The position numbers were made by a program, and so were the translations under genes. Below, piece after piece: positions 13,498 through 39,964 of a stretch of 64,000 nt of DNA (position 1 is its first letter; every line of letters starts with the position of its first letter). Source of the DNA: a virus; the IMG/VR virus record IMGVR_UViG_3300020446_000009, positions 1-64,000 of that record. One strand, 5' to 3'. Below the pieces are notes generated by a model. The model searched no databases. It was not told the origin of the DNA and was given only the letters and a program-made list of their open reading frames with translations.

Positions 13498-13500
13498 ATA

Positions 13501-14499: not shown

Positions 14500-14516
14500 G
14501 ATTAAATTATTTTATT

Positions 14517-14524: not shown

Positions 14525-14531
14525 ATTATTT

Positions 14532-18137: not shown

Positions 18138-18138
18138 C

Positions 18139-21100
18139 TTATTTATTTTCTTTTATAATATTTTTTAACTCATTAATTTGTTCTTGTTGTTCTTGAATAG
18201 ATTGAATTAATATTGATACCATTTTAGAATATTGTATTCCTTCAACTTCACCCTTTTGATTATGTCCAATAAATTCAGGGTATAATTTATTTACTTCTTC
18301 TGCAACTAACCCAATATGTTGATCTTGTGTTGGAGACCAAGTATAAGATACAGGTTTTAATTGCATTACTTTATCTAATTGTGGATTTAGTGGTTGAATA
18401 TCTTCTTTATATCTTAAAGCAGAAGATTCTACAAATGTAGTTGATGTTGTAGTTCCAGTATCTTTATCATAAACAAATCCTGGAATATATGAACCTGGTG
18501 GTGAAAATTCTTCTGTACAATTAAATCTAGATGGATAAAATCCTCCAGCAAATACAGCTGAGGTTGAATTACCAAATCCTGCAACTTGATTTCTTGATTG
18601 AATAAATGAGCCCGCCGAACTCCATGAACTACCATCCCATGTTTCCCCACTAGAAATTACAGTTGGGGTTCCTGATGCTCCTGCACCATGTCCTGCTAGA
18701 TAAGCATTAGCGGAAGCAGCAGCTGCACCTCTCCAATAACTTATATTTATTGTATTAGTTCCAACCGTCCAACTAGATCCATCATACTCTTCAGTACAAT
18801 TAAAATAAGAATTAGAATATCCTGGGCCTCTACCTCCTATTAATAATGAAGAGTTTTGGGTTCCTGCTCCTCCATGTGCCGCCCTTCCTACAATTAAAGC
18901 ACCACCTGATGACCAAGATGAACCATCATATTCTTCGGTAGCTGTCATAAAATTAGAAGTTCCATATCCACCATAAGCTAATCCGGCATTTTGTGTACCA
19001 CCCGCGGCATGGTTTTTTCTTGTATTAATCATAGCACCTCCAGTAGCCCAGGAAGTACCATCATATTCTTCAGTATCAGATATGATTGATGGTGTATTAC
19101 CCCCTGTTCCTATAGCAGCAGTTGAGGTTCCTGCTCCCTTCATTTGTTGTCTTGCTGTAATTATATTACCACCTGCACTATAGGAAGTACCATTATATTC
19201 TTCAGTACAATTAGAATAAGATGGACCTACATAACCACCAAATACTATTCCAGCTGTTGATGATGCACCCGCCCCACCAGGACTTGATTTACTTTGGTTT
19301 AAAGTATCAGCACTAGAAAAAACAGCAGTTCCCGCAGTTGAATCAAATCTTGGGAATGATACACTACCAGTTACATTTAAACTACCTGATATATCAGCAG
19401 ATCCTGTAAAAGGAAATCCACTCCCACCTCCAGCATTTTCAGCATAGGATGCTGTTATGGCATAAGAGGAACTTAAAACTAATGCTTCACTTCCTCCATC
19501 AGTTTGTACTCTTAATCTACCACTATGTACACTTACTCTTCTTTGAGATGAAGTATCTGATCCAATAATAAGTTCATCAACTATAATTTTTTTCCTAGTA
19601 GATCCTACATGGAAACTAACGTGACCATCTGCATCTCTTGATATTTCAGTACCTCCTAAATTAATTGTAGAACCACTTAAATATAAATCTTTCCAACGTA
19701 AAGATGAAGAACCTAAATCATATGTTTCATTTTGAGAAGGAACTAAGTGCCCACTAGCAGTTATAGCCCCTCCCGACCCATTTAAGTGACTAATAAGGTG
19801 TCCACCTTCAGTTACTACTATATGCCCCGAACTTGTAGCTGCAAATGTAACAGTAGCAACATTAGCACTACTTAAAGTTACACTTTCGGGTATAATTTGT
19901 GTGTTACTAGAATCGTATACTATAACATTAACATTTAAACTATTAAAGTTATGAGTTACTGTTTCCGAAACAGAGTTTGTAAATGAAGAAGTTACTGTAG
20001 TTTCTGTTGAAATACTTGCAGTTACTCCTGTTAATCCACTACCATCTCCCGATATAGTACCTCCTACAACAGTTAATGATCCCGATATACCAGCTGAACC
20101 TGTAAATGGAAAGCCAGTTCCTGTTCCACCACCTGAACCTGTTGCCACAGTAACAGCAAAAGTTGAAGAATCTCCTTTAGTAAAAGTAATAGTATTACTT
20201 GTTGCAGAAGCAGTTGTTAATAAACTACCAGTGTTAACACTACCCGCATTTTCGGCAAAGGATGCTGTTATAGCATGAGAAGAAGTTATAGCATAAGATG
20301 CACTTGTAACTGTCCCATCTACATTAGATGCCGCTACATAAGAAGCTGTTTGAGCTGTAGTAACATAAGAAGCTGTTGTTGCTGTACCTTGTAAAGATCC
20401 GGTTGCAACTAAATCATATAAATCAATTAGTTGAATTGTATTGCCCATTCCATTACCATGAACAGTACAATAATATTTTAATGAGCTTGAAGTAGCAAAA
20501 TCTACATCAAATTCTACATAAGCACCTGTGTTACCTGCTGTACCTACTGTTGTAACACCTGTTGTATATGAAGTGTTATCAGGTAATCTAAAAGCTAATG
20601 GATGATTATTATTTGTAGAATCAGATAGGTCAAATCTATAAGTAGTACCTTTATTAAGAGATAATTTTGGTGCTGTTACACCATCAAAAGCATATTTATT
20701 ACCTCCATCACTTACTACTGTTACAATAATTTCATCATACTTATCTTCAGTTTGTAATACATTAGTCCAAGCTGAACCTGAATATACTTGATATTTGCCT
20801 ACAGTTGTATTAAAAATTACATCACCATTTTGAGCTGTAAATGTTCCTCTTTCAGTTGTAGTAAGTGAAGCAACTCTAAATGGAGAGGAAGTTACAACAA
20901 CGGCATCGGAAGCACTTAAATTTAGACTTGTTGGAGAAAATAAAGCAGGTATGCCTGTTAAACTGGGATCTAAATTAAACCCATAAGAAGTAACAGATCC
21001 AGTTATATTAACAGAACCTGTGATTGTTTGATTTCCTATAAAAGTATTACTACCTGTAGTAGCATATGAACCTGTTTTACTTGTAAGGGTTGTTATATCG

Positions 21101-22527
21101 GCTACATTTCCTCCTATGCTAGCAGCTATAGATGCAGAAGTTGATGTAAAGGCACCTGATATATCAGAAGCAATTTGGGCCGAACTTGATAATAAGGTAT
21201 TGCTTAATTCGGATTCTGCTGTTGTAATTCTTGTACTAAATGAAGCACTATCCGCTACTAAACCGGCTACATCAGAAGCAACTGAAGAACTGTTAGTAGT
21301 TATACTGGCTACATTTGCCGCTATACTACTAGCAAATGAAGCACTATCTGCCTTAGTAGCAATATTTGTTGCTAAGGAACTAGATAGTGAAGCAGTAGCA
21401 GTATTTAATACTGATGTTATTATTATATCTTCTCCATTAATTTTATAAGAACTACCAGTTACTAAAAGCGATCCTGTTCTTATATGGGTATCATCTAGAG
21501 TATCTCCAAATTTAGTTGAACCACTTGAAAATATTACAGAAGAAGTTTCATATATTGTTTTCAGATAATTAATAGAGGCAGTACCTTGTACTGCTATATC
21601 TTCTGTAAATGTTTTAGTTCCCGCTATAGACTGATTTCCTGTTATTTTTACAGCACTACCATCTAAAGTAGCTATATCAGTTGCAATAGAAGCACTTGTT
21701 GAAGTAAAAGCACCTGATATATCAGAAGCAATTTGAGCTGAACTAGATATTGTACCTGCGGCAACAACTCCAGTTAAACCAGAACCATCACCAGTAAATG
21801 AACCAGTATATGTTATAGTGGTTGTAGATAATGATGAACTAAAAGTTTCCTGAGATGTTACTCTTGTACTAAATGAGGCACTATCTGCTACTAAACCAGC
21901 TATATCAGAAGCGGCGGAAGCACTATTTGTAATTATGCTAGCGACATTTGCCGCTATACTACTAGCAGCTGAAGCACTATTTGTAGTTATATCAGATTTA
22001 TTTGTTGATATATCTGCTGATAGACTTGAACTTAAACTTGCGGTTGCACTATTTAATTCTGCTTCGGTAGCAAAAGTTGCATCTAATGATGAGCTAAAGG
22101 TTTCTTGAGCTGTTACTCGTGTACTAAATGATGCAGAAGGTGCTGTAAAAGCACCTGATATATCAGAAGCAATTTGGGCCGAGCTACTAAGTGTTCCGGC
22201 TGCTGTTACACCTGTTAAATTTGATCCATCTCCTGTAAATGAGCCCGTAAATGAGCCTGTAAAATTACCATCTCCACTTGTAGCAAAAGATGCAGAAGTA
22301 GCAGATAATACTGTACCATCTACACTACCCCCACCTACGTAAGAAGCAGTTAATGAAGTATTTGCTATATTGGCTACAGTAGCTAAAGAAGAAGTACCTA
22401 CAATATTTCCTATAAAACTTCCTGTAAAAGAACCAGAAAGAGATGATCCAGAAATAGATGTAAAATTTGCAGCGGTTCCATCAATATTAGAACTAGCAGA
22501 GAGATTGACTCCTTTTAAATATGCCAT
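18139..22527 (-). CDS. Large tail fibre with cupredoxin-like insert, kelch propeller and S74 autochaperone
   Basis: 1462 residues. The N-terminal third is low-complexity Ser/Ala/Thr-rich fibre shaft with near-identical SAQIASDISGAFT repeats and TGSFTGDGS motifs. Residues about 595-710 resemble a type-1 copper-binding fold: a first NNHP histidine, then YYCTVHGNGMG offering Cys, His and Met ligands. A T-HNFNS-x-NV strand pair follows. Residues about 1060-1345 form one six-bladed kelch propeller. From S1369 (SALRYKEDIQPL) there is an S74 chaperone with its terminal coiled coil. It is a receptor-binding fibre candidate; whether the copper site is occupied is unknown. Two candidate promoters precede it. 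Confidence 0.82.
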   Translation of the reverse strand: MAYLKGVNLSASSNIDGTAANFTSISGSSLSGSFTGSFIGNIVGTSSLATVANIANTSLTASYVGGGSVDGTVLSATSASFATSGDGNFTGSFTGSFTGDGSNLTGVTAAGTLSSSAQIASDISGAFTAPSASFSTRVTAQETFSSSLDATFATEAELNSATASLSSSLSADISTNKSDITTNSASAASSIAANVASIITNSASAASDIAGLVADSASFSTRVTSQETFSSSLSTTTITYTGSFTGDGSGLTGVVAAGTISSSAQIASDISGAFTSTSASIATDIATLDGSAVKITGNQSIAGTKTFTEDIAVQGTASINYLKTIYETSSVIFSSGSTKFGDTLDDTHIRTGSLLVTGSSYKINGEDIIITSVLNTATASLSSSLATNIATKADSASFASSIAANVASITTNSSSVASDVAGLVADSASFSTRITTAESELSNTLLSSSAQIASDISGAFTSTSASIAASIGGNVADITTLTSKTGSYATTGSNTFIGNQTITGSVNITGSVTSYGFNLDPSLTGIPALFSPTSLNLSASDAVVVTSSPFRVASLTTTERGTFTAQNGDVIFNTTVGKYQVYSGSAWTNVLQTEDKYDEIIVTVVSDGGNKYAFDGVTAPKLSLNKGTTYRFDLSDSTNNNHPLAFRLPDNTSYTTGVTTVGTAGNTGAYVEFDVDFATSSSLKYYCTVHGNGMGNTIQLIDLYDLVATGSLQGTATTASYVTTAQTASYVAASNVDGTVTSASYAITSSHAITASFAENAGSVNTGSLLTTASATSNTITFTKGDSSTFAVTVATGSGGGTGTGFPFTGSAGISGSLTVVGGTISGDGSGLTGVTASISTETTVTSSFTNSVSETVTHNFNSLNVNVIVYDSSNTQIIPESVTLSSANVATVTFAATSSGHIVVTEGGHLISHLNGSGGAITASGHLVPSQNETYDLGSSSLRWKDLYLSGSTINLGGTEISRDADGHVSFHVGSTRKKIIVDELIIGSDTSSQRRVSVHSGRLRVQTDGGSEALVLSSSYAITASYAENAGGGSGFPFTGSADISGSLNVTGSVSFPRFDSTAGTAVFSSADTLNQSKSSPGGAGASSTAGIVFGGYVGPSYSNCTEEYNGTSYSAGGNIITARQQMKGAGTSTAAIGTGGNTPSIISDTEEYDGTSWATGGAMINTRKNHAAGGTQNAGLAYGGYGTSNFMTATEEYDGSSWSSGGALIVGRAAHGGAGTQNSSLLIGGRGPGYSNSYFNCTEEYDGSSWTVGTNTINISYWRGAAAASANAYLAGHGAGASGTPTVISSGETWDGSSWSSAGSFIQSRNQVAGFGNSTSAVFAGGFYPSRFNCTEEFSPPGSYIPGFVYDKDTGTTTSTTFVESSALRYKEDIQPLNPQLDKVMQLKPVSYTWSPTQDQHIGLVAEEVNKLYPEFIGHNQKGEVEGIQYSKMVSILIQSIQEQQEQINELKNIIKENK

Positions 22528-22607: not shown

Positions 22608-23156
22608 TTATTCCAAATAAAATCCAGAAATTTGAAGTGTATATTTATCCTTCATTCCTCCATTCATAGATAAGTGAAGTACTTTATCGGACCATAAAAA
22701 TCCATCTCCTGCCTTCCAATCTACTGATGTTTTCCATTTTTTATTATTGTTTATATCTTGATATTGAATCATATGTCCTACTTTCCAATCTTCAAGATAA
22801 ATATTTGCACGTACCTTAGTACGTTTATCATTTGGGTATAATTTTTTAAATTTAAAAAAAGTATCCCTATGTAATGTTACAACATTTCCTGGGGGTTGTA
22901 AAATTGAGGAGCATGTTTTTGCCTCAATATTTAACTCTTTAGCTAATTCTTTAACTATAGGATGTTCAACGTCATGCCATATTTGTTGTATAACTGTATT
23001 ATTTTCATCAAATGAATAACCATCACCATATTCAGTATATAAATCGTTTTGTTCCTCTCTTTGATAAGAAATACAAGAACCTTTATGTACAGAATAGTCT
23101 GCTAAAGGTGGGAGAAAGAAATTATAATCAAAATCTAAATTTAGGTGTTGTAACAT
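22608..23156 (-). CDS. 2OG-Fe(II) oxygenase of hydroxylase type
   Basis: 182 residues. QPPGNVVTLHRDTFFKF contains a canonical HxD iron pair (H96, D98). GDGFLWSDKVLHLSMN carries the distal histidine (H161), and a lysine exactly ten residues later (K171, in KDKYTLQISGF) would bind 2-oxoglutarate. The Q-PPG-x-x-x-x-x-H-x-D phrasing resembles aspartyl/asparaginyl beta-hydroxylase-like and phage hydroxylase groups more than the PF13759-type paralogues at 10373-12284. It has its own candidate promoter 15 bases upstream and lies directly downstream of the carbamoyltransferase and glycosyltransferase genes, which suggests part of the same protein- or glycan-modifying set. Confidence 0.8.
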   Translation of the reverse strand: MLQHLNLDFDYNFFLPPLADYSVHKGSCISYQREEQNDLYTEYGDGYSFDENNTVIQQIWHDVEHPIVKELAKELNIEAKTCSSILQPPGNVVTLHRDTFFKFKKLYPNDKRTKVRANIYLEDWKVGHMIQYQDINNNKKWKTSVDWKAGDGFLWSDKVLHLSMNGGMKDKYTLQISGFYLE

Positions 23157-23170
23157 TATTTAACTTTATT

Positions 23171-23178
23171 ATAAATAT
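23171..23178 (-). promoter_or_regulatory. Candidate late promoter of 22608..23156
   Basis: The coding strand reads AAATATTTATAATAAAG, ending 15 bases before the ATG at 23156. The extended sequence matches the copy at 22551 closely. Confidence 0.5.
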
Positions 23179-23181
23179 TTA

Positions 23182-24750
23182 TTATTTTTGGATGTGATAA
23201 TTTTCTAAAATTAATCCATCCATTTCTGTATTTTCTAACATCCATATAGCATCTCTATAAGTGTTAAGTATAGGTTTACCCGCTATATTAAATGATGTAT
23301 TAAGTAGTACTCCAATTCCTGTTCTTTGATCCATCCAAGTTAATAGTTCATATAACCAAGGGTTTTGTTTTTGGGTTACAGTTTGAACCCTAGCTGTCCC
23401 ATCAATATGAGTAATTGCCTCTAATTTAGATTTATATTCTTCTTTAACCTTAGGGCAAAAAGACATCCACCTTGATTCCTGATTAAATTCAAAAAATTTA
23501 TTTACATCTTTTAATCTAACTACAGGAGCAAAAGGTCTATAATATTCTCTATTTTTTACTTTTTTATTTAAAATATCTTTCATATTAGGAATTGAAGGGT
23601 TACATAATATACTTCTATTTCCTAAAGCCCTAGGACCTATTTCACTTCTTCCTCTTACTACACCTATAATTTTTCCTGGTATTAATAAATCATCTATTAT
23701 TTTTTCTGGAGTTATATAATCCGATTTATGTTTATGGACATATTCATGTAAAGAATTTTTATCCCATACTTCTGGTCCCATATATGTAGCATCAAAAGCA
23801 GTTTTTGGTTTTAAATAACTTAACATAAAACCTAAAGATAAACCACTATCATTTGGATTAGGAGGAATAAATGTTCTAGTTATATTATTTACAGCAGTAT
23901 TATTTAATATATTTAAAGCACAACCCCCGGATAATATTAAATTACCTTTACTAGCATCTATATAATCTTTACTTACTTCATAAAATATATCCTCAAATAT
24001 TTTTTGTGAAGTTCTACTCATATCTAATTCTAAATCTCCTTCTAAACATTTAGGAAGATTAAGGTCTTTTTTTAATTGAGCATAATTTCTTAATTTACTA
24101 AATTTAAAATTATCATGACCTTTATAATATTTTCTTAATGATGGGATCCATTCCTTTCTAATTGATCCATACCCTGATAATCCCATTAATTTTCCAGCGT
24201 ATACTAAATAAGCAAATGACCAAGGATCTTGTCTTATTGAAGGGGTATATCTACCAATTTCAGCATATTTTTCCCCAATATTATAATCATAATCCATCCA
24301 ATCTAATTCAACTCCTTTTTCTCTGGTGGCATTATAAAAATTAAAACACCCATCATTTCCACCACCATCAAAACTAATAATTTTAGCTTCTTGTAAATCT
24401 GATTGGTAAAAAGCACCACTGGCATGGCCAAATTGATGGTATACTTCTATTATATTTTTGCAATTAAAAAAAGAAAGGATATTATCTTTTTTACCTAAAT
24501 GAGAGCTCCAAGTATTTACATCATCATGATTACAAATTAAATTTTCATAATTTTCAGCACCATATTTTTCCTTAAAATAATTTAATATTTGCCGAGTACA
24601 ATTTAAAGGATTATGGGTAAAAAAATACCATAATAAACCGGCATTTTTTACATTAGTATATCTTTCTAATTCTAAAATTTCTAAAATTTGATCACCTTTT
24701 GATACAGTAAAAGAACAATTATGGCCAGAATATATAGCTAAATTATACAT
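23182..24750 (-). CDS. O-carbamoyltransferase, NodU/CmcH/TobZ family
   Basis: 522 residues. The N-terminal Kae1-like domain has GHNCSF near the start, the metal-binding YHQFGHASGAF (H105, H109) and ISFDGGGNDG (D128). The C-terminal domain has LSGGCALN, SEIGPRALGNRSIL and YYRPFAPVV, hallmark motifs of the NodU/CmcH/TobZ carbamoyltransferases. Family members use carbamoyl phosphate and ATP to place a carbamoyl group on a sugar hydroxyl of a nodulation factor, antibiotic or polysaccharide. The length is normal (about 520-570). It starts two bases after the multi-domain glycosyltransferase gene ends, so it probably decorates the glycan that enzyme builds. Confidence 0.9.
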   Translation of the reverse strand: MYNLAIYSGHNCSFTVSKGDQILEILELERYTNVKNAGLLWYFFTHNPLNCTRQILNYFKEKYGAENYENLICNHDDVNTWSSHLGKKDNILSFFNCKNIIEVYHQFGHASGAFYQSDLQEAKIISFDGGGNDGCFNFYNATREKGVELDWMDYDYNIGEKYAEIGRYTPSIRQDPWSFAYLVYAGKLMGLSGYGSIRKEWIPSLRKYYKGHDNFKFSKLRNYAQLKKDLNLPKCLEGDLELDMSRTSQKIFEDIFYEVSKDYIDASKGNLILSGGCALNILNNTAVNNITRTFIPPNPNDSGLSLGFMLSYLKPKTAFDATYMGPEVWDKNSLHEYVHKHKSDYITPEKIIDDLLIPGKIIGVVRGRSEIGPRALGNRSILCNPSIPNMKDILNKKVKNREYYRPFAPVVRLKDVNKFFEFNQESRWMSFCPKVKEEYKSKLEAITHIDGTARVQTVTQKQNPWLYELLTWMDQRTGIGVLLNTSFNIAGKPILNTYRDAIWMLENTEMDGLILENYHIQK

Positions 24751-24752
24751 TA

Positions 24753-27700
24753 TTATAAAACCTCTCTGTCTTTAAAATTTATATTAGCAAATTTTTCGTA
24801 ATCTTGTAAACTTCTTTTATCACCTAAATTATATTTACCTAAATCCCCATTTTGTTCAACTAGCATTTTAAGTCTATTTACAGCTACAGTATGTTTTTCA
24901 TGATGGTTTTTAAAAGTATTTATATGTTTAGCGGGTGTTTCTGGGTGAATACGATGCCAAGCTAATATTTTAGTAGGTAAATATATATCATATCCGGAAG
25001 TATAAGACCTTAAAGCTAAAGCAAATTCTTCTCCTGTATAATAATGTTCAGGATCTTGTTCTATTTCTTGTACCCATTTTCCCCAACTAAAAATAAATCC
25101 ACCATATAGTAAAGATACATTTTGGTTAACTTCATTTGTAGATCTTTCATCTTGATAACCACCATAAATTGGCCAATATTGATCTGTTAAACGTCGAAAT
25201 GTAGGCACATTTAAAACAGTAGGGTTATTTAAATGAGTAAATTCATAATCAATTCCCTTATCATCATCCCTATGATAACCTGGAGGAAGAAATGATATTA
25301 AAGGATTAGGAGATTTATTAAGTAATTCATTAAATTCTTGAATTATAGTTTTATCCCAATTTTGTAAAAATCTAGTATGGGCATCTACTTGAAGACTATA
25401 TTTTTCCCCATTATAAAATTGTTGAGAAATATTACGAGCCCAACACCCTCCTTCAGATTCTGTCCAATCAAATTTTGATAATTTAATATTATATTTTTGA
25501 ACTAAATCATCTAATATATTTTCAGAAGTATTAGGAGTGGAATTATCATACTGCATACATACTCCAAAATATAAATTTTCAGGGGATGAAGACTTATTAA
25601 TGCAATCTAAAATTGTATGTCTAATTTCATAATCTTTAAAAGATGCTATAGATACAAATATAGTAGAATCTGATATATTTTGAATAGGGGGTTTTTTAAA
25701 TTCAAAACCTAAAAAATTTTCTAAATCATGAAGAGATCTAACATAAGAAGGATCTTTAGCAAATAATATTTTATTTAGTTCTTCTACTGAATTATCGTCT
25801 AAAATAGGATTTTGGAAATTATTGGGTGTTCTATAAGGTATATCTTTTTTAGTTTTATAATTATAATTATGCCATATAGTAGCTTCAGAAGCTACTTTTG
25901 GATTCCATCCCTTTAAAAAAGAAAGATAGGTAGCAGTATCTTCTTCACCACTAAAAACCATACGTTCTGGGATTTGTACTTCTTTTAACCAATCTGCTTT
26001 AACAAAAGTAAATCCTGCAGTAACCCATTTAGTATCCTTTACTTCATAATTTTTTAAAGATGGAAGATTTTCCGCTTGACATCTATTATCTATTGGATCA
26101 TCTGGGTGGATGAATTTTTTAATTTTTAAAGGAGTATTATAAGGTAATTTTAAATATTTTTTTGTTGGATCCGGAACATCAAAATTATTAGGATAAGTTG
26201 TTAAAATAACTTTAGGTTCATTTATACTATTATACTGGTGTATTAGAATTAAGTCCCAATTTTCTTTAAATCTAGAATGAGAATCTATATTTAAAAAATA
26301 AGATTCATTTGTAAATTTTTCTTTAATCCTATTTCTAGCCCAAACTACGCCTTTAGTATCTTCCCAATGAATATATATTAACTCTAAATTAGGATAATTT
26401 AATTCTAATAATTCATGATAAACATCTATTTCATCTTGTACACATACTACTACTTTTACTTTATTGGGGTTAGATACTTCTTCATATAAACTTTTTAAAG
26501 TATCAAATATTTGACTATCTCTGTAACTGGCTATAGAAACAAAGGTTATATCATTATTAAATTTACTTACATCTAAATATTCTCTACACCAATTATGTCT
26601 TGCTTCGGGATCATTTATATAATAATCTTTATGGATATGAGTAATAGGTTTTGTATTTATATAAAATTTTTTATCTATTATATCATTCATAAAACTTCTA
26701 ATTTTATAAACATAAGTAGATAAAGTAGAATTATCATTACCTATAAATGATAAACCACGAGAACATATAAGTTGTTCAATAAGTGGAATCCAATTTATAT
26801 TTATATTTTTAAATTTTAGTTGTTGTTCTAAATCATTGTAAAAAATTAATTCATACCCATATTCTTCTAAATTTGAAAAATAGTTTTTATCTTCTAAATC
26901 AGTAGCAATATATAGTTTACTATTCTTAGGAATTATATCCTTAATATTATTTAAAAGTTGTTCGGGACTAATAAATAAATCTTTATATTGAAAATCATTT
27001 CTTCTTATATGCATTGAATAATATGATTTATCTCCTAATAAATTTATAAACTGCCAGGCAATATCCCTTAATTTGTTTTTATATACTACATACTTACCAA
27101 TAAGTTGTTTTAATGAAGTTTCATGTTTAGTATAAAAAGATAAATAAAAATTACCTAATAAATTTTCATTTAAATATATAATTTTTGAATTATCAAATAT
27201 TGTTTCAGATTTTAATTCTTTTCTTCCTTTTAGGAATTTTTGAGGGATAGGAATTTTTTCAAAATTAATTACATGTTGAACTGCATCATAATTTAATACT
27301 TTACTTACTTTTTTTAATTCATCTAAATTATGTTCTATTTTATGGATATCACATAATTCTTCAAAAGATATATGTTTAATTCCTAAATTTTCTACTTCAA
27401 AGTAATCGGATAAATTACTTACACCTTCTGTAAGGTACATAGAATAAGAAGGGGGCAATACTAAGGTTCTATCTGTTAAATAGGATAAGCATATTGCTTG
27501 TTCAAAGGACATTCTAATATTATTAAAACCCCCTGACCATGGTTGGAAAAATAAATGTCCTTTACTACCTGTATAAAATTTAAATAAATATGGAAAATCC
27601 CATTTAGATTCATATATGTAATCTGTTCTTTCTTGATCGATATTAGATAATAAAATAGTATCTGTTAAATTTCTAGCTTTATTTATTTCTATTTTTTGTG

Positions 27701-28439
27701 TAGGGGAATGGGTATAATCTTGTTTAAAAAATATTTTTTCTTTATCTATTGATTCTATAGCATTAGGATAATGTAATATTTTACTTATAGTTTGAGAATT
27801 ATTTTTGTTCCAAATTGTACATCTTCCTAAATTGTCTTCTAATATAAATTTTACATTATTTTTTTCTAACGCGTAATGTAAGCCCCACATTTCAGCTTCC
27901 CATTTACTAGTTTTTTTTCTAATAGCTATACAAATTTGCTTATAATCATTAATTATTTTTTTTAAAGTATAAAAAGTAATAGCAAAAGGATACATTATTC
28001 CATATTCATCTTCTTGAATTGTTTTTGTATCTTTAGTTAAAGCAGTAAAATTAATCCATCTTTGACCTATTACTTCATTATGATTAGGATATAAATTAAC
28101 AGGTTCTAAAAAAACCATATCAGGATCTAAAAATAATAATCTATCTGAGGGTTTAAATTTTTTATGTTTACATAACCAACTAATAGATTCATATTTATTT
28201 GGTATTCCACCCCACCACTTACCATCTTTAATTTCCCATTCTTTAGCCCAATCCGGAAGTTCAATTACTTCTACATTAGGAAATGTAAAATCTATAATTT
28301 CTTTATTGTGATTGTGGTCAAAGGAAGATAAAAATATAATTTTACCTTTTTGTTTAACTTTATCAGCTGACCATTTAAGTAACTGTAATTGCCATTTTTG
28401 GTAAAGACATTTACTTGTGCTTACAATTATATAATCCAT
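24753..28439 (-). CDS. Four-domain glycosyltransferase with two Skp1-Hyp GlcNAc-transferase-like (GT60) domains
   Basis: 1228 residues, four apparent domains. Residues 1-260 have an NKYESISWL ... LLFLDPDMVFLEPV pattern and a W-x-AEMW-x-x-x-x-A helix, resembling plant peptidyl-serine galactosyl- and Hyp-arabinosyltransferases. Residues about 290-590 resemble GDP-fucose protein O-fucosyltransferases (GGFNNIRM at 303, MHIRRNDF at 476). Residues 630-905 and 926-1228 are two copies of the Skp1-hydroxyproline GlcNAc-transferase type: VSIASYRD/VSIASFKD, GVVWARN/GGCWARN, the D-S/A-H-x-RF metal site (719, 1019) and FSGEED/YTGEEF. No signal or membrane segment is seen. It sits between a prolyl-hydroxylase-like gene and a carbamoyltransferase. 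Confidence is high for the GT60-like halves, moderate for the first two. Confidence 0.82.
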   Translation of the reverse strand: MDYIIVSTSKCLYQKWQLQLLKWSADKVKQKGKIIFLSSFDHNHNKEIIDFTFPNVEVIELPDWAKEWEIKDGKWWGGIPNKYESISWLCKHKKFKPSDRLLFLDPDMVFLEPVNLYPNHNEVIGQRWINFTALTKDTKTIQEDEYGIMYPFAITFYTLKKIINDYKQICIAIRKKTSKWEAEMWGLHYALEKNNVKFILEDNLGRCTIWNKNNSQTISKILHYPNAIESIDKEKIFFKQDYTHSPTQKIEINKARNLTDTILLSNIDQERTDYIYESKWDFPYLFKFYTGSKGHLFFQPWSGGFNNIRMSFEQAICLSYLTDRTLVLPPSYSMYLTEGVSNLSDYFEVENLGIKHISFEELCDIHKIEHNLDELKKVSKVLNYDAVQHVINFEKIPIPQKFLKGRKELKSETIFDNSKIIYLNENLLGNFYLSFYTKHETSLKQLIGKYVVYKNKLRDIAWQFINLLGDKSYYSMHIRRNDFQYKDLFISPEQLLNNIKDIIPKNSKLYIATDLEDKNYFSNLEEYGYELIFYNDLEQQLKFKNININWIPLIEQLICSRGLSFIGNDNSTLSTYVYKIRSFMNDIIDKKFYINTKPITHIHKDYYINDPEARHNWCREYLDVSKFNNDITFVSIASYRDSQIFDTLKSLYEEVSNPNKVKVVVCVQDEIDVYHELLELNYPNLELIYIHWEDTKGVVWARNRIKEKFTNESYFLNIDSHSRFKENWDLILIHQYNSINEPKVILTTYPNNFDVPDPTKKYLKLPYNTPLKIKKFIHPDDPIDNRCQAENLPSLKNYEVKDTKWVTAGFTFVKADWLKEVQIPERMVFSGEEDTATYLSFLKGWNPKVASEATIWHNYNYKTKKDIPYRTPNNFQNPILDDNSVEELNKILFAKDPSYVRSLHDLENFLGFEFKKPPIQNISDSTIFVSIASFKDYEIRHTILDCINKSSSPENLYFGVCMQYDNSTPNTSENILDDLVQKYNIKLSKFDWTESEGGCWARNISQQFYNGEKYSLQVDAHTRFLQNWDKTIIQEFNELLNKSPNPLISFLPPGYHRDDDKGIDYEFTHLNNPTVLNVPTFRRLTDQYWPIYGGYQDERSTNEVNQNVSLLYGGFIFSWGKWVQEIEQDPEHYYTGEEFALALRSYTSGYDIYLPTKILAWHRIHPETPAKHINTFKNHHEKHTVAVNRLKMLVEQNGDLGKYNLGDKRSLQDYEKFANINFKDREVL

Positions 28440-28442
28440 TTA

Positions 28443-29693
28443 TTAAGGTTGATACGCCCAATCTTTTAATTTATAGTGTGCATAAAAATTTCTATAAAAA
28501 GTACCTTTAAAGGGATCGGGACGACCATGTAAACAGGTAGCTGATTCATATAAAATTATATCTCCAGGTTCAGCATATATTTTATGCCATTCCCCGTCAT
28601 GTGATTGAAAGTGTAATGGCCAATCTTCAGGTTCTTTATCCGGGCCACAACCACAAGCTAAATTTTTATCTACTATTATAATAGAAGAAACATGGTGGGT
28701 TTCTAATCTATCTACATGATTTATTAAACTAGCTCCCCTTTTATAAGATCTTATACCATATAACATAGTAGGAATTAAAGGAACTTGAACCCATTGTTGA
28801 TGGAATGGTAAAAGTTGTTGGTGAATTAATTCTCTAAGAGAAACTAAATTATCAAAGGACATCATTTCACTACCATAACCCCCATCTGGTGTATTAATAA
28901 CATCTTTTACTCCATTCCAATTTTCCTCTTGTATATTATTTTGTAATAATTTATAAGCATCATTTATAATACCCCAAACTTGAGAAGGTAATTTTTCAAC
29001 TTTAAAACCTACTTCATTAAGACGAGGTAAATCGTCTTTAGTTTTAAATATTTTTTGATTAGGAGGTGGTATTGATACTACTTTATTAGAATTATTATTT
29101 TTCCAATGTTCTTGAGACAATCGATCATCTTCACACCCATCCCATTTTTTTTCTCTCCACCAAGAAGTTATAATATATTTTTTTCCTTTTTTTACCTCAG
29201 TTCCTTCATGAAGCATATCATGTATAACCTGCCCATCAATCATATTAGGCCAATATATAGCTTTACCTATTTTAGGTTTAACACTAAAATTAAATTTTGG
29301 AAAATCTGTTTCTCCTCCTTCTTCAGGTATATTTAAATACACCATAAAAGTATGGGTTCTATTACCAGATGCTAAACAATGATTTATAAATGAATCTCCT
29401 TCAAAAAAATCTGTATGGGGTTTGAAGAATTGACCTGGTTCATATAATTGGCCTTGGATTGATTCACCTCGATTTATATCAAGTCCTAATTTTTTTGCTA
29501 TTCTTTTTTTAATTCTTTTTATTAAGGGATTTTGTTCAGGTAAGGAAGAAGTACTAGATGTTCTAGTTTCTTCATATTGACTTTTATCATTTCCTCTACC
29601 AGCAACTGTAGAACGGGTGTGATTTGAATCAATCATTTTAATAATTGCTTCACAATCTTTTTTAGATAAAAAATTAGAGATTTGTTCAATCAT
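28443..29693 (-). CDS. Two-domain prolyl-4-hydroxylase-like 2OG-Fe(II) oxygenase
   Basis: 416 residues. Domain 1 (about 1-185) is a P4H-type hydroxylase: Y-EPGQFFKPHTDFF (H93, D95), FMVYLN, GGETDFP, then H162 and K172 in LHEGTEVKKGKKYIITSWW, the ten-residue His/Lys spacing of prolyl-4-hydroxylases. Domain 2 (about 215-416) has its own iron site, HVD (H326, D328), a distal H389 in CLHGRPDPF, and arginines R391/R401. Two different hydroxylase domains in one chain are unusual. It is transcribed just before the glycosyltransferase with hydroxyproline-transferase-like domains and just after a Pro-rich fibre gene. Prolyl hydroxylation of that fibre is therefore a specific testable idea. Confidence 0.85.
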   Translation of the reverse strand: MIEQISNFLSKKDCEAIIKMIDSNHTRSTVAGRGNDKSQYEETRTSSTSSLPEQNPLIKRIKKRIAKKLGLDINRGESIQGQLYEPGQFFKPHTDFFEGDSFINHCLASGNRTHTFMVYLNIPEEGGETDFPKFNFSVKPKIGKAIYWPNMIDGQVIHDMLHEGTEVKKGKKYIITSWWREKKWDGCEDDRLSQEHWKNNNSNKVVSIPPPNQKIFKTKDDLPRLNEVGFKVEKLPSQVWGIINDAYKLLQNNIQEENWNGVKDVINTPDGGYGSEMMSFDNLVSLRELIHQQLLPFHQQWVQVPLIPTMLYGIRSYKRGASLINHVDRLETHHVSSIIIVDKNLACGCGPDKEPEDWPLHFQSHDGEWHKIYAEPGDIILYESATCLHGRPDPFKGTFYRNFYAHYKLKDWAYQP

Positions 29694-29747
29694 AACTTAG
29701 AATTTTATTTAATAATATAATAACTTATTTTATTTACTCAAAGTAAT

Positions 29748-30005
29748 TTACAAACTACCTGAATAATCATTTATAACTTCATTTGTAATATCAATTGTGT
29801 CATAATGGTCAGTACCATATCCATAAGAACCAGATTCAAAAGACCCACTTGGAATTTTAACTTCATTAATTGTATTTAAATGGCTATTAATAACAGCAGA
29901 TTCTCCCTCTCCTGATATTGATATAGGATCTTCCCATGATACTATCGTATCATTATAAGAAGATGATATTAACCAATCATTAAAATCTAAAAAGCTTACT
30001 TCCAT
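29748..30005 (-). CDS. Small acidic virion-type protein
   Basis: 85 residues, strongly acidic, not recognised. It contains SGSFESGSYGYG and GSL strands in the style of the fibre proteins here and ends in DYSGSL. There is no signal or membrane segment. It lies 13 bases after the proline-rich protein gene in transcription order and before the hydroxylase-glycosyltransferase genes. The 54-base gap that follows (29694-29747) is A/T-rich with no clear promoter or terminator. It is most likely a minor structural or adaptor protein. Confidence 0.5.
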   Translation of the reverse strand: MEVSFLDFNDWLISSSYNDTIVSWEDPISISGEGESAVINSHLNTINEVKIPSGSFESGSYGYGTDHYDTIDITNEVINDYSGSL

Positions 30006-30018
30006 ATTTTATTATTTT

Positions 30019-30843
30019 TTAACATCCTGAACATGGGATATACATATTTGATGCAGAACCACCTGTATAAACAGTAATAGTATTATTTCGTACACATACA
30101 TATGTAGTTGAAACATATGAAACTTGACTGTTCATGTATGTTCCATCACAACAAGTGTAAGCATACACTACATAACTTGAATATATACTTTTATTAACTT
30201 GATATCTGTAACATGTAACACTTGTTGGTGCTGGTGTTGGACTAGGTGTAACAGGTGCTGGTGTAGGACTTGGGGTAGGTGAAGGGGTTCCTACACAATC
30301 TGAACAACTATCATATTCAGCATAACCCGCATAATTTGGACTACTAGTTGAAGTAGAATATATTGTAGCACACCCAAAACCATAAACAAAAACAACAACC
30401 CCTGCATTTAAATTACCATCATAAGATAAGTTTCCGGATCCTCCACTACATCCATAAAAAGTATAACTAGCAATAGCTACAGGTGCAGGTGTAGGTGGTG
30501 GTGTAGCAGGTGATGGCGTTGGTGGGTTAGTTGGTGGATTTGTTACAGGTGGTGGTGTTGGTGGACTAGTTGGTGGACTTGTAGTTGGTGATGGAGTAGG
30601 TGGTGGTGTAACAGGTGATGGTGTTGGTGGATTAGTTGGAGGTGATGTTGGTGGAGGTGTAGGTGCATTTGTAGCAGTATTACAATTTCCTTGGTTAGAA
30701 AATTGAGTACCTGTCCAATATCTCCATATTGTACTATTACTGTAATAGCCTGATGGTCCAAGAGTACTACCACGCATATCGGCATATAGTTTAGTTGCTG
30801 TTGCTAAACTGCTACTATCAAGATAGAAATATTGGTTGGCCAT
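30019..30843 (-). CDS. Cysteine-rich modular fibre protein with long proline/threonine linkers
   Basis: 274 residues. An N-terminal module (1-55) ends in SGYYSNSTIWRYWTGTQF and a cysteine. Residues 61-122 are a P-T/S repeat (PTPPPTSPPTNPPTPSPVTP and similar). A cysteine-containing globular module (about 124-186) is followed by a second Pro-rich linker (187-207) and a C-terminal cysteine-rich module beginning CYRYQV. Pro/Thr/Ser linkers resemble hydroxyproline-rich and mucin-like glycoprotein segments, which are classic substrates for prolyl hydroxylation and O-glycosylation. The gene probably heads the unit that also encodes the prolyl-hydroxylase-like enzyme, the glycosyltransferase and the carbamoyltransferase. 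A virion surface fibre is inferred. Confidence 0.7.
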   Translation of the reverse strand: MANQYFYLDSSSLATATKLYADMRGSTLGPSGYYSNSTIWRYWTGTQFSNQGNCNTATNAPTPPPTSPPTNPPTPSPVTPPPTPSPTTSPPTSPPTPPPVTNPPTNPPTPSPATPPPTPAPVAIASYTFYGCSGGSGNLSYDGNLNAGVVVFVYGFGCATIYSTSTSSPNYAGYAEYDSCSDCVGTPSPTPSPTPAPVTPSPTPAPTSVTCYRYQVNKSIYSSYVVYAYTCCDGTYMNSQVSYVSTTYVCVRNNTITVYTGGSASNMYIPCSGC

Positions 30844-30850
30844 TACTTAT

Positions 30851-30858
30851 ATAAATAT
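30851..30858 (-). promoter_or_regulatory. Candidate late promoter of the Pro-rich fibre and modification unit
   Basis: The coding strand reads AAATATTTATATAAGTAATG, so the ATATTTAT core ends only eight bases before the ATG at 30843. It would place 30019..30843 and the enzymes down to 23182 on one transcript. Confidence 0.45.
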
Positions 30859-30859
30859 T

Positions 30860-31015
30860 TTAAAATGTATAATTTTCAGTCATATTATTCTCATTATAAA
30901 ATTCTACTAATGCATCAAAATCAATATTTTCTTTAGTAGCTCCTTCACAGTGTGCAATTATTTTATCTGCCTCACTTTTCATAAATGGTGATAAATCTTC
31001 GTACGTTAGTGGCAT
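30860..31015 (-). CDS. Small acidic protein, 51 residues
   Basis: A short open frame I translated by hand: MPLTYEDLSPFMKSEADKII to a C-terminal NYTF. It is acidic and helical in character with no recognisable family. It lies in the gap between the two Pro-rich fibre genes, on the same strand and tightly packed with the next small frame. Its coding potential is plausible from spacing, but no homologue can be claimed. Confidence 0.45.
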   Translation of the reverse strand: MPLTYEDLSPFMKSEADKIIAHCEGATKENIDFDALVEFYNENNMTENYTF

Positions 31016-31020
31016 TTTTA

Positions 31021-31140
31021 TTAATTTTTATTTTTTAAATATTCATCTATGTCAAAAGATTCTATTGGCATTCCCATTGACCCACATATTACACTTATTT
31101 CTGTTTGTAATTCTTCTGATAATTCTTCAAATTTTGTCAT
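31021..31140 (-). CDS. Small acidic protein, 39 residues
   Basis: A second short open frame, MTKFEELSEELQTEISVICG and on to KNKN. It resembles its neighbour at 30860 in size, charge and the short acidic-helical start, so the two could be diverged copies. It lies 13 bases from the 910-residue fibre gene. No promoter or ribosome-binding site is visible. It is a weak call. Confidence 0.4.
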   Translation of the reverse strand: MTKFEELSEELQTEISVICGSMGMPIESFDIDEYLKNKN

Positions 31141-31153
31141 AATTATTTTATAT

Positions 31154-33886
31154 TTAATCTGTTCTTAAATAATAAGTTACCCCATCAACCATACTAACAC
31201 CCGAAACTGATATGTAAGCAAATCTTTCAGGGGTAATAGTAGATCCAGTTCCATTATTATCCACATATGAGTTTGATAAACTTAAAGTAGCTGACCATCT
31301 TCCTTCTTGTCCTAAACTATTAGTAATAACTTTGTTTGAAAATGATGTAGATCCTGGATCAGTACCACTACTAGAAGAAATTGCCATAAAAAATCCAAAA
31401 GAATTTGTAATAAATTGAGTTAGAAGTAAATGATTAACATTTCCAGCTCCTCTTAATCCTTGTCCTAATACAACTACAGGAAATCCTCCACCAAGATAAG
31501 CACAATCAGTTCCCGATAAATTTACCATTGTAGTTGTTGGGCCTAATCCTTGACCATATACATTCCAAGCAGGGTTACAAGGAATTGATGCATCAGCAAA
31601 AATACTTCCATGGTGGAATCCTGGTTGAATACCATTTGTTTGTTGGAATAACCCAGGGGCAGTGTAAGTTGATCTCCAAAATATGGTTCCTGCCCTAAAT
31701 ACCCAACCATTAAATCCAATAAAATTATTATAATCCTCACATGCTTGGTTAATATTATATTGTGTGGTTCCTAAATTCATTAGGTAAAGTCCAGATGTAG
31801 GAGATGGAGTTGTAAGGGTCCCTACATTAACAGGTGGGGGTGTTGGTGGAGATGTAGGTGGTTGAGTTGGAGGGAAAATAACTCCAGGAGTAGCACCCGT
31901 ACAATTTCCTAAAAATGTTACACTTGCTCCAGGAGTATTTATTGTTGGTTTAACACGTGTACAAACTGGATCTGTATCCCCACCATCTACACTTCTAGTT
32001 TGGGTATTACCATCACAATCAATATAACTAAATGTAGATACTGCGTCATGTTTAGCTTCTAATTCATATTCATAACAAGTAAATCCTAAACAAATTGGAT
32101 CATTACAATTACCTCCTACTACAACTCCTGCAATATCATAAGGAACTGCATTGGTAGAAGTACCAGTAATTGTACCACATATTGTAGTACCAAAAAGTTC
32201 AAATTTTATAAGGTCTCCATTACTATAGGGTCCTGCATATTGATCATTTGTAGTAACATGATATGTACCACCTCCACTACAACCACTTATTTCATATTTG
32301 TAAATAGTAGTTCCTGTTGGAGCAGGAGTTGGGGGTACAGTTGGAGCAGGAGTTGGTGGGTTTGGAGTATCACAAGTACCACTTGCTCCAAAAAACTGCC
32401 CATCCCAATATCTCCAATTATTACCTAAACTTATATATTGTGCGGGAACCGAACCTAATGGGGGTATTGCATTATAATATACATTATTAGCTAATGTCCA
32501 ATCGGCATTATCAAAATATAATCTTTGTTTAAAAACTGTAGTTCCAGGGGAATTTCTTGTACAAGCAGCATCGGCAGTATCTCCTTGATAAACATCAGTC
32601 TCTGTAAGATCAGAATCATATCCACATGTAATTATAACATTAACAGCATCACTTATAGGATCAGATGGGTCAGCTGCCCCACCATAAACTCGTATTTGTC
32701 TACCTGTGGAAGAATTATAATCAAAATTATCTCTTTTTAAACTTAAATCATTTAATCTATTACCCCATGGACCACTATAATTAGCAAAACCCATCCATCC
32801 TGAATCATAAACTGTACCACTATCATCTATTACAGTAACTCTATTAGGTCTTTCAAATGATTCAATTTGAATACGATTGGCATATTGAGTATCTGAAGAA
32901 GGTATATCTACAGGATCATAAATTATATAGTTCATACTAGAACTATAAAAATCTAAATGAGAACTAGAGGTACAACTGTAAGTTCTATTAGTTGATGATA
33001 TAGGTGCTGGAGTAGGTGGTCTAGTAGGTGGTGAAGTTGGAGGTGGAGTTGGTGGTCCTGTAGGAGGAGATGTAGGAGGTGGGGTAGGTGCATCATATAT
33101 ATTATTATCTGAACTACAAGGACCTAAATTTTCTATTACTACATCTTGATTTACAGTTAAATTATTTTGATCCTGACAAAATGTTATATTGGGCATGTAC
33201 TCAATATTAAAATAACCAGACCCATGAGCTCGGGTTGGGGTATCAGAAGAACAAACTTCCATAGCATAATCAGGGAAAACTTCGGTTTCAAGTGTTGCTC
33301 CCGTTAAACAATCAGTATGACTTACATATAAAGAATCAGTTAAATCATAATTTTCAACATAAAAAGTGTGACAAGGTAATTGATAACTACTAGTTATACC
33401 TTGAGCAGTTCCATCTTTAGCACAAAAAGGACCAAAGGTCCCAAATTTACCTATTTGTTCTACTCTATATGAACCATCAGTAGCAGTACATGGTACATAT
33501 CTTACTTGACCATCATTACCATTATTATCATATGCTCTATATATAGTACAAGGTTCAGCAGTAACCGGTGCAGGAGTAGGAGCTTGAGTTGGTGGTGATG
33601 TAGGTGGTGAAGTTGGTGGATCAGGAGTTGAAACAGGAGCAGGTGTAGGAGCAGGGGTTACAGGATAATTTCTATATTGTATAGATTCTGATACATGGCT
33701 TAAACTAGTTATATAACCAGCAAAATCGGGGTCAAAAAATTCTTGATCTGAATTAGATATTAAACCAGTAAATGTGGTTTGTCCATCAACATTATCTCCT
33801 CCTTGTTTAATACCTCCAGCAATAGATTTTTCATCATCCGCTGATGATGAGTACATATCAAAATTTCCTCCTACTGGTACACCCAT
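31154..33886 (-). CDS. Large cysteine-rich modular fibre with four proline-rich linkers
   Basis: 910 residues. Four Pro/Thr/Ser linkers, near residues 75-114, 265-297, 505-529 and 667-695, read like PTPAPTPAP and PPTSPPT. They separate globular modules with paired cysteines; for example, CYEYELEAKHDAVSTFSYIDC resembles the C-terminal module of 30019..30843. A RYWDGQFF-x(5)-C segment near 495 matches the RYWTG-x-x-F module of that protein and of the baseplate protein 47366..51781. The C-terminal about 200 residues form a separate domain, perhaps adhesive. This looks like a long, flexible, multi-domain virion fibre whose linkers could be hydroxylated and glycosylated. Confidence 0.7.
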   Translation of the reverse strand: MGVPVGGNFDMYSSSADDEKSIAGGIKQGGDNVDGQTTFTGLISNSDQEFFDPDFAGYITSLSHVSESIQYRNYPVTPAPTPAPVSTPDPPTSPPTSPPTQAPTPAPVTAEPCTIYRAYDNNGNDGQVRYVPCTATDGSYRVEQIGKFGTFGPFCAKDGTAQGITSSYQLPCHTFYVENYDLTDSLYVSHTDCLTGATLETEVFPDYAMEVCSSDTPTRAHGSGYFNIEYMPNITFCQDQNNLTVNQDVVIENLGPCSSDNNIYDAPTPPPTSPPTGPPTPPPTSPPTRPPTPAPISSTNRTYSCTSSSHLDFYSSSMNYIIYDPVDIPSSDTQYANRIQIESFERPNRVTVIDDSGTVYDSGWMGFANYSGPWGNRLNDLSLKRDNFDYNSSTGRQIRVYGGAADPSDPISDAVNVIITCGYDSDLTETDVYQGDTADAACTRNSPGTTVFKQRLYFDNADWTLANNVYYNAIPPLGSVPAQYISLGNNWRYWDGQFFGASGTCDTPNPPTPAPTVPPTPAPTGTTIYKYEISGCSGGGTYHVTTNDQYAGPYSNGDLIKFELFGTTICGTITGTSTNAVPYDIAGVVVGGNCNDPICLGFTCYEYELEAKHDAVSTFSYIDCDGNTQTRSVDGGDTDPVCTRVKPTINTPGASVTFLGNCTGATPGVIFPPTQPPTSPPTPPPVNVGTLTTPSPTSGLYLMNLGTTQYNINQACEDYNNFIGFNGWVFRAGTIFWRSTYTAPGLFQQTNGIQPGFHHGSIFADASIPCNPAWNVYGQGLGPTTTMVNLSGTDCAYLGGGFPVVVLGQGLRGAGNVNHLLLTQFITNSFGFFMAISSSSGTDPGSTSFSNKVITNSLGQEGRWSATLSLSNSYVDNNGTGSTITPERFAYISVSGVSMVDGVTYYLRTD

Positions 33887-37924: not shown

Positions 37925-39964
37925 TTAGAATAATTGAGCCTTTACAATAATTGGAGAGAAATTGTCTATTCCCGTTATTTTTAATATATTATAATTGCTA
38001 CCTAAATTCCATTGTTGATTTATTGTTGGGATATTACCAGAATTACCTGTACCTGTAGCACTAATACCTGAAATATTGGCTACATTAATACCCGTTTTGC
38101 TTCCAAACGTTCCAGCTCCTTCTTGTGTACCCGCAGGTAATGTCACTTGCATTGGAGCTGATTCCTGATTATCAGCATATATTAACAACCCGTGTAGTTG
38201 GCAACTACCACTTAAAGCACCTGGTGCTGTAATTGATATTGCAGTTACATCTCCACTATTATCTGTAACACTGGCGCTAAATGCAGGAACGTATGCTGCA
38301 CTATCACCCGCAGTTCCTCCTGTTGAATCAACATCTAATGTAAATGTATCCGCATCTGATACGGCAACAGCAGAATATTTGTAATCCTGATTAGCATTAC
38401 GAACCATTACACAATCACCATTACTTAGACCATGGCTAGTACTAGTTACAGTAAGTGTAGTACCTGATCTAGTCCATGATTTACTTCCAAAATAATCACC
38501 AGTAGAAGTTAATTCTAATCTATGAGTAGAATTTGATGAAGCAACATATCTCATAGCAGTATTATATACTACATCTACTCCTCCACCACCACCTTCAAGT
38601 GTTACTGTGACTCCTGATCCCGAAGTTACAACATCTGCAACACCTGAACCTGTAAAATTAATTCCATCTATGTTTGTAGCTACAGTACTACCACTTTGTT
38701 GTACTAATACTGCGGACCCATCAATTCCAGATGTACCTGAAGTTCCGGATGTACCAGAAGTACCACTTGTTCCAGAAGTACCATCTGCTCCATCAGTAGC
38801 AGAGGTTCCAGATGTACCTGAAGTTCCGGATGTACCAGAAGTACCACTTGTACCCGATGTTCCACTTGTACCTGATGTACCATCAATACCCGAAGTACCA
38901 GAAGTACCAGAAGTACCATCTACGGCTGAAGTACCACTTGTACCTGATGTACCTGTTGTTCCACTTGTGCCTGAAGTACCTGAAGTACTATCTACACCTG
39001 AAGTACCAGATGTTCCATCTGTAGCAGAAGTTCCAGATGTACCGGATGTTCCATCTGTAGCAGAAGTTCCACTTGTTCCCGAAGTACCAGAAGTACCAGA
39101 TGTACCTGAAGTACCAGATGTTCCACTTGTTCCCGAAGTACCATCAATTCCTGAAGTACCATCTTCTCCAGATGTACCAGAAGTACCAGAAGTACCATCT
39201 ATAGCTGATGTGCCTGAAGTACCGGATGTACCATCATTTGAAACACCTGAGCTACCACTTGTTCCTGAAGTACCGGATGTACTATCAACTCCAGATGTTC
39301 CTGAAGTCCCGTCTGTAGCAGAAGTTCCGCTTGTACCAGATGTACCATCAATTGCGGATGTACCACTTGTTCCTGAAGTACCATCATTTGAAACTCCCGA
39401 GGTACCACTTGTACCTGAAGTACTATCTACACCTGAAGTTCCAGATGTACCAGCATCTCCTGAGGTTCCAGAAGTACCATCTACGGCTGAAGTACCACTT
39501 GTACCTGATGTACCAGATGCTCCATCATTACCATCTACTCCTGAAGTACCAGATGTACCAGCAGTAGCTGAAGTACCAGAAGTACCATCCACTCCAGATG
39601 TACCATTTGCTCCATTAGATCCATTTACACCTGATGTTCCTGAGGTTCCAGCCGCCCCAGCTGCTCCATCATTACCACTTGTTCCACTTGTTCCCGAGGT
39701 ACCAGCAGATCCTCCTCCACCTCCATAAGAACCAGTAAAATGTAATTCTCCCGTAGAAGTATCAACCATTACTGTTTTATATGCAGTATTAGAATTTTCT
39801 GCTATTGTTGGATTTTTAAGAGATCCAGTTACAACAAGAGAACCTGAAATTGTTATATCGTAATCTTCAGCTCCAGTTAGGGCATCTACAGACTGGGAGA
39901 CGTGCCATGACTGTATTGTAGCCCCTTGGACTATTTGTGATTCATAATTAAGTACTTTGGCCAT
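37925..39964 (-). CDS. Collagen-like Gly-Thr-Ser triplet-repeat virion protein
   Basis: 679 residues. Residues about 85-418 are an almost uninterrupted Gly-x-y repeat dominated by GTS with occasional GVD, GID, GAA or SND triplets, a collagen-like pattern lacking proline. The N-terminal 80 residues have the [10 protein letters not shown] strand seen in fibres. The C-terminal about 250 residues form a separate domain that shares [11 protein letters not shown] and GVTVTLEGG with 36765..37910. Phage collagen-like stretches form trimeric rods in tail fibres. With no prolines in the repeat, stability would come from other means, such as Thr/Ser glycosylation; that is speculation. Confidence 0.75.
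38707..39714 (-). repeat. Low-complexity collagen-type coding repeat (GTS triplets)
   Basis: About one kilobase of 9-base coding units (Gly-Thr-Ser and variants) with third-position variation, entirely within 37925..39964. The repetition also opens long spurious frames on both strands, including one rich in VPEVPDVP on the plus strand. Confidence 0.85.

Follow-up and report, generated by a model that had tools for sequence, protein, structure and literature searches.

A phage gene cluster predicted to make hydroxyproline-linked glycans on proline-rich virion proteins

Why does a phage keep a prolyl 4-hydroxylase (P4H), a multidomain glycosyltransferase (GT) and a carbamoyltransferase next to genes for proline-rich proteins? 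We asked this for a minus-strand cluster in IMG/VR virus record IMGVR_UViG_3300020446_000009, of which positions 1-64,000 (the window) were analysed out of 68,559 bp. In gene order, the cluster encodes two Pro-rich proteins of 910 and 274 amino acids (aa), an 85-aa acidic protein, the P4H, a 1228-aa GT, the carbamoyltransferase and a PhyH-like oxygenase (Table 1), all at the places given in an earlier reading of the same DNA (the original prediction). Gaps from the P4H through the PhyH-like gene are 2-25 bases, which is compatible with a single transcript. We propose that the cluster probably decorates virion proteins of the phage with hydroxyproline-linked glycans. The same idea, of a P4H and GTs acting on Pro-rich virion proteins, stood at the core of the original prediction. 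It is supported here by gene adjacency measured against controls, by linker-free orthologues, by the pairing of the P4H with GTs of the HPAT (hydroxyproline O-arabinosyltransferase) type and by Pro-rich segments in annotated virion proteins.

As first described, the P4H has two domains; their catalytic residues are intact. Domain 1 matches PF13640 (E = 3.4e-15) and, among solved structures, the P4H of Bacillus anthracis (1.8e-26), then Chlamydomonas P4H and vCPH of PBCV-1; one of the matched Chlamydomonas structures contains a bound (Ser-Pro)5 peptide. It carries the HxD...H motif of the family and a 2-oxoglutarate (2OG)-binding lysine 10 residues past the distal histidine (H93, D95, H162 and K172). 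Domain 2 resembles an oxygenase domain as well. Its putative iron ligands, those of domain 1 and K172 are invariant in 161 of 161 homologues. Relatives are common in IMG/VR, where 350 candidate stretches were confirmed; the 80 that were kept are mostly around 47-58% identical. The P4Hs of Microcystis phage Mel-JY01 and of an Erwinia phage were set aside as more distant, and T/S/A/V-Pro repeats were not found near them.

The candidate substrates are encoded just upstream. The open reading frames (ORFs) of 910 and 274 aa contain six long Pro/Thr/Ser stretches with up to 17 prolines in 30 aa. The P-T-P/P-P-T-S linkers originally noticed in these two proteins are therefore present, but their designation as fibres is unproven: neither protein has a match in family (profile) searches, and a fibre role is suggested by position. 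Within the linkers, the residue preceding proline is T (35%), A (18%), V (14%), S (14%) or P (8.5%) in about 90% of cases, while Lys, Arg and Glu are nearly absent and there are almost no charged residues. The acceptors of plant hydroxyproline glycosylation are likewise rich in TP, AP, SP and VP. Homology and linkage both point to peptidyl-proline hydroxylation by the window P4H, and its targets are quite likely prolines in the two proteins' [T/A/V/S/P]-Pro linkers.

The linkage of the P4H with Pro-rich virion proteins and GTs is conserved. Defining a Pro-rich ORF as one with at least 9 Pro in 30 aa, we found such an ORF directly upstream of the P4H in 74 of 110 loci and at most three genes away in 89 of 115. 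Taken together, three further oxygenase families from these phages have a Pro-rich gene directly upstream in none of 88 cases (0/23, 0/46 and 0/19), and only 1 of 39 bacterial single-domain P4Hs has one. These controls rule out co-location with any 2OG oxygenase. We also used a sample of viral loci retrieved by the P4H alone and dereplicated at 85% identity. Here 27 of 36 loci have a Pro-rich gene as the nearest upstream neighbour, compared to 7.3 expected when Pro-rich genes are placed randomly within the same loci (P = 2e-14), and none has one downstream; after dereplication at 70% the upstream count is 14 of 20 (3.5 expected). Five 2OG-Fe(II) oxygenase genes lie in a row elsewhere in the window (10373-13497, minus strand; three PF13759 and two PF13640). 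At least three of these are conserved together in relatives that lack the two-domain P4H, and they served as negative controls.

Relatives with the window-like order P4H-GT-carbamoyltransferase(-PhyH), which we call group B, mostly have no Pro-rich gene directly upstream. The larger group-B records mostly hold one, either next to the P4H (G009, G014) or elsewhere (G008, G010-G013). The Pro-rich protein adjoining the P4H in G014 (13062-14618) has GPP collagen repeats inside. Counting only records of 20 kb or more, 11 of 13 with the P4H encode Pro-rich proteins, compared to 1 of 7 relatives without it (Fisher p = 0.004).

Among the marine relatives, many have a Pro-rich protein orthologous to PHROG 14478, a 'virion structural protein' (E down to 1e-251). 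Where the P4H is missing, in five cultured phages or records (MW202828 and phages of Flavobacterium, Cellulophaga and Tenacibaculum), the orthologues do not exceed 3-5 Pro per 30 aa; cultured phages were scored as P4H-less when they did not appear among the P4H tblastn hits. By comparison, 51 of 53 orthologues in P4H or HPAT loci have at least 7 Pro per 30 aa, and 36 have at least 9. Thus the structural protein is shared, and the linkers accompany the P4H. Long Pro-X repeats also occur in two annotated virion proteins, VrlC (ORF19) and the central spike (ORF217), of the cultured Synechococcus phage S-SCSM1, whose virion proteome has been measured by mass spectrometry (PMC9602691). This phage encodes a protein O-fucosyltransferase (O-FucT; ORF113), a relative of P4H domain 2 (ORF114, 36%) and a carbamoyltransferase (ORF117). 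Ten other phages without the two-domain P4H have no Pro-X coding repeats, save for matches in three cyanophages that look antisense to Gly-rich coding, as judged from the matched letters only.

The GT has the four domains originally described, including two of the PF11397 (GT60-like) family (E = 2.4e-81; 274 bits, cut-off 21) with conserved D-x-H and GEE motifs. An O-FucT domain (PF10250, residues 296-583; E = 1.3e-21; 78 bits, cut-off 31.5) had been left out of that description. The O-FucT, PF11397 and carbamoyltransferase assignments all score above cut-off in profile searches. The likeness of domain 1 to plant hydroxyproline GTs, also part of the original prediction, is correct, but it comes from matches of relatives to HPAT PF23452 (curated cut-off 23.9 bits). 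Five of seven aligned family members match this profile (best 2.3e-6), and a 34%-identical homologue passes the cut-off (E = 1.3e-10); the homologues in G009 and G010 score 34.7 bits and, with neighbours, 28.3 bits. Profile comparison ties the domain 1 family to a second, standalone HPAT-type family (93.7%), in which G031, G041, G051, G049 and G024 exceed the cut-off. A structure model of domain 1 indicates a GT-A fold only (mean pLDDT, the model's own confidence score, 67; residues 205-290 poor), and a sequence search of solved structures gave none resembling the HPAT-type domain. A single-sequence scan of viral contigs with the whole GT yielded no direct relatives; these were found instead via the P4H and the carbamoyltransferase.

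The standalone HPAT-type family tracks the P4H closely. A scan seeded with it gave 66 loci, 62 with a P4H and 57 with a Pro-rich protein; three of the four loci without a P4H start at the HPAT gene, which leaves L248 as the sole real exception. The large records L242 and L247 arrange their genes differently and combine a distant single-domain P4H with a Pro-rich protein and an HPAT-type fusion. Among 33 dereplicated P4H loci, the HPAT type is the only GT in 10 and PF11397 the only one in 1; 14 have O-FucT, alone or alongside PF11397, 5 have HPAT, O-FucT and PF11397 together, and 3 have no recognised GT, so that HPAT and/or O-FucT lies downstream of the P4H in 29. HPAT-type and O-FucT domains thus stand in for each other in part, as expected of alternative first transferases. 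PF11397, present in only some relatives, looks like an extender and not a first transferase. The hydroxyproline link drawn in the original prediction is supported, with its weight shifted from PF11397/GT60 to HPAT. In the relative L028, a UDP-galactopyranose mutase (TIGR00031) and a sugar epimerase-like ORF lie near the P4H-GT genes (17708-19800) and may hint at the donor sugar.

Two other readings of the linkers have to be weighed at this point. The P4H might only stiffen polyproline-II stalks by hydroxylation, with the GTs acting elsewhere, for example on host surface glycans or other virion sites. P4H/Pro-rich adjacency is indeed the strongest signal, and the three loci with no recognised GT fit such a role. 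We nevertheless regard it as unlikely, given the pairing of the P4H with the standalone HPAT-type GT and the position of GTs directly after the P4H in most loci. Alternatively, sugars could sit mucin-like on Thr and Ser of the linkers, with any hydroxyproline a structural or recognition element. The linkers are 19% Thr and 8% Ser, and Ser/Thr are the acceptors of classical O-FucT enzymes. Against this, some relatives have V/A-P linkers (VPVPVP, APAPAP) poor in Thr and Ser and still keep the P4H and GTs, and HPAT-type GTs pair with the P4H; we rate this reading slightly below hydroxylation alone. On balance, the glycans probably sit on hydroxyproline.

The carbamoyltransferase was correctly predicted, and both of its Carbam_trans domains pass the cut-off. 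The 2OG oxygenase announced for the end of the cluster is a weaker case, with only a sub-threshold PhyH match, yet the gene is kept in the cluster of relatives (homologues in L005, L058, L059 and L063). O-FucT is fused to a carbamoyltransferase in L099, L120 and L138, which suggests that the carbamoyl group is perhaps placed on the O-FucT-added sugar. We put carbamoyl capping of the glycans forward tentatively, at somewhat less than even chances.

Surface glycan editing typically involves such enzymes too (carbamoyltransferase, O-FucT, GDP-sugar enzymes, a sulfotransferase), and the authors of the S-SCSM1 study read its glycan genes as cell-wall modification (PMC9602691). The cluster could accordingly edit host surface glycans, for superinfection exclusion or receptor masking, its place among tail genes marking a variable host-interaction region. 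This would leave unexplained both the association of the P4H and HPAT-type GT with Pro-rich virion proteins and the lack of linkers in orthologues that come without a P4H, and we hold it to be improbable. Far less probable still is DNA hypermodification, in which the oxygenase, a TET-associated GT (TAGT)-like domain and the carbamoyltransferase would make a modified base. The TAGT match is weak (22.0 bits, cut-off 27.5), the oxygenase is related to peptide-prolyl hydroxylases, and the cluster lies among tail genes. A Tet_JBP search of the fragmentary record found no match, which counts for little as the control matched nowhere either; a TET/JBP system has no support here.

We therefore return to hydroxyproline-linked glycosylation. 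In the proposed pathway, the P4H would first hydroxylate linker prolines; the HPAT-type or O-FucT domain, as first GT, would attach a sugar to hydroxyproline; the two PF11397 domains would lengthen the glycan; and the carbamoyltransferase would cap it by carbamoylating a sugar hydroxyl. Decorated linkers might form stiff, protease-resistant stalks that space adhesin domains from the particle, or might mask the particle. Domain identities, intact catalytic residues and gene linkage are what the sequences show; acceptor, reaction order, sugar types and the advantage to the phage are inferred.

Several points weigh against this pathway. It is known here from genes and sequence comparison alone. 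Searched alone, the N-terminal 290 aa of the window GT match no Pfam family. The HPAT PF23452 and O-FucT families may also contain Ser/Thr transferases, and PF11397 occurs in phages without the two-domain P4H (XacN1). The loci counted above are related by descent, and their counts are not fully independent. Finally, the P4H-bearing fragments G019 and G020 have no Pro-rich protein, and the P4H-less record G003 holds Thr/Pro-rich proteins.

The original prediction named no other phage with so complete a set. The set is not unique to this phage: it turns up in numerous phage contigs of marine and freshwater origin, and also in two genomes of Bacteroidetes. In the latter, a Saprospiraceae metagenome-assembled genome (L263, 3-5809) and the single-amplified genome AG-470-E04 (L264, 7956-13840), a two-domain P4H is followed by a giant GT of 1516-1533 aa with a make-up similar to that of the window GT. 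In L264 a Tat-signal-like protein with PTVSP repeats lies about six genes from this pair, possibly a cellular version of the system. Such pairs are rare, each order sample of 299 genomes yielding 1. To our knowledge, hydroxyproline O-glycosylation is regarded as eukaryotic. We consider it probable that a widespread non-eukaryotic form of it acts on Pro-rich virion stalks of phages from marine and fresh waters, whose hosts are probably Bacteroidetes and, for some, cyanobacteria.

The gp6-like protein of the window, which also has T4-type baseplate genes, has its closest cultured relatives in Flavobacterium phage immuto (44.5% identity) and Mel-JY01. Since the genomes of these phages are 160-190 kb, the record is probably a fragment of a larger phage genome. 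All neighbouring genes listed here are on the minus strand. An APS kinase-like gene (2687-3118; PF01583, 1.5e-15) adjoins a sulfotransferase (3115-3939; PF13469), a possible sulfation step; L117 likewise has a small kinase and a sulfotransferase-like ORF directly after its HPAT-type gene. Repeated kelch-like 'TEEYDGTSWS.GG' blocks mark two large fibre-like proteins at 14532-22527, and a tail-fibre-like protein (37925-39964) has long collagen-like GTS repeats that are nearly Pro-free.

Table 1. Features of the cluster, in window coordinates
Feature	Position	Strand	Basis or remark
910-aa Pro-rich protein, putative virion protein and substrate	31154..33886	-	no family match; virion role from position and relatives
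Pro-rich linker, aa 75-112 of 910-aa protein, PVTPAPTPAPVSTPDPPTSPPTSPPTQAPTPAPV	33551..33664	-	
Pro-rich linker, aa 256-295 of 910-aa protein, includes APTPPPTSPPTGPPTPPPTSPPTRPPTPAP	33002..33121	-	
Pro-rich linker, aa 508-523 of 910-aa protein	32318..32365	-	
Pro-rich linker, aa 667-696 of 910-aa protein	31799..31888	-	
274-aa Pro-rich protein, putative virion protein and substrate	30019..30843	-	no family match
Pro-rich linker, aa 61-121 of 274-aa protein	30481..30663	-	
Pro-rich linker, aa 187-206 of 274-aa protein	30226..30285	-	
85-aa small acidic protein	29748..30005	-	matches no known family
Two-domain P4H-like 2OG-Fe(II) oxygenase; domain 1 H93, D95, H162, K172; domain 2 H326, D328, H389	28443..29693	-	
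1228-aa four-domain GT	24753..28439	-	
GT domain 1, HPAT-type (LDPDM, WWGGIPNKY), GT-A fold	27570..28439	-	homologues' HPAT matches and fold model
GT domain 2, protein O-fucosyltransferase-type, PF10250	26691..27554	-	Pfam match; GGFNNIR, HIRRNDF motifs conserved
GT domain 3, PF11397 (Skp1-type GlcNAc transferase family)	25851..26543	-	Pfam match
GT domain 4, PF11397	24777..25664	-	Pfam match
NodU/TobZ-type O-carbamoyltransferase	23182..24750	-	PF16861 9.5e-63, PF02543 6.8e-14; PHROG 1601 8e-115
PhyH-like 2OG oxygenase, weak	22608..23156	-	PF05721 20.1 bits, below cut-off 22

Prolyl 4-hydroxylase is among the commonest accessory genes of pelagic viromes, where its use 'remains cryptic' (PMC9301287), and prolyl-hydroxylase-like structures are widespread in marine phages (PMC12774648). 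If correct, our proposal would explain this abundance. By joining a P4H to a Pro-rich virion protein and a GT of the HPAT or O-FucT type, the shared module would give part of the viral P4Hs a testable function with a named substrate, and its compact enzymes could serve for producing hydroxyproline glycopeptides in bacteria. We found no phage hydroxyproline-glycosylation system in the literature searched, which covered few subscription papers and no preprints.

Among the closest known systems is that of plants and green algae, in which a P4H and then an HPAT-family GT (GT95) act on extensins and arabinogalactan proteins. The phage version differs in being phage-borne, presumably cytosolic and encoded in one cluster with its substrate, and in its extra O-FucT, PF11397 and carbamoyltransferase steps. 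The Skp1 pathway of Dictyostelium and Toxoplasma also uses a cytosolic P4H (PHYa) and a PF11397 GT (Gnt1, GT60) in series. It modifies a single hydroxyproline, compared to dozens of prolines in repeats in the phage proteins, and PF11397 is present in only some of the phage relatives. PBCV-1 vCPH is a virus-encoded P4H related to domain 1, but it has a single domain and belongs to a eukaryotic algal virus in which we know of no coupled HPAT-type GT cluster. Hydroxyproline in viral proteins has been proposed for vCPH (Eriksson 1999, as cited in PMC9301287). In the capsid glycosylation of mycobacteriophages such as Maravista (PMC11256854), phage-encoded GTs are inferred to decorate virion proteins, whereas a prolyl hydroxylase or hydroxyproline is not reported there. 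S-SCSM1 ORF112-117 bring together O-FucT, the domain 2-like oxygenase and carbamoyltransferase in a phage with Pro-rich virion repeats; its oxygenases are single-domain, the genes lie away from the substrate, and GDP-fucose synthesis genes are added. The parts, from plant P4H/HPAT and Skp1 P4H/GT60 to a viral P4H and phage virion glycosylation, are thus already known. What would be new is their combination in phages, with a chemistry known in eukaryotes and here predicted for virion proteins.

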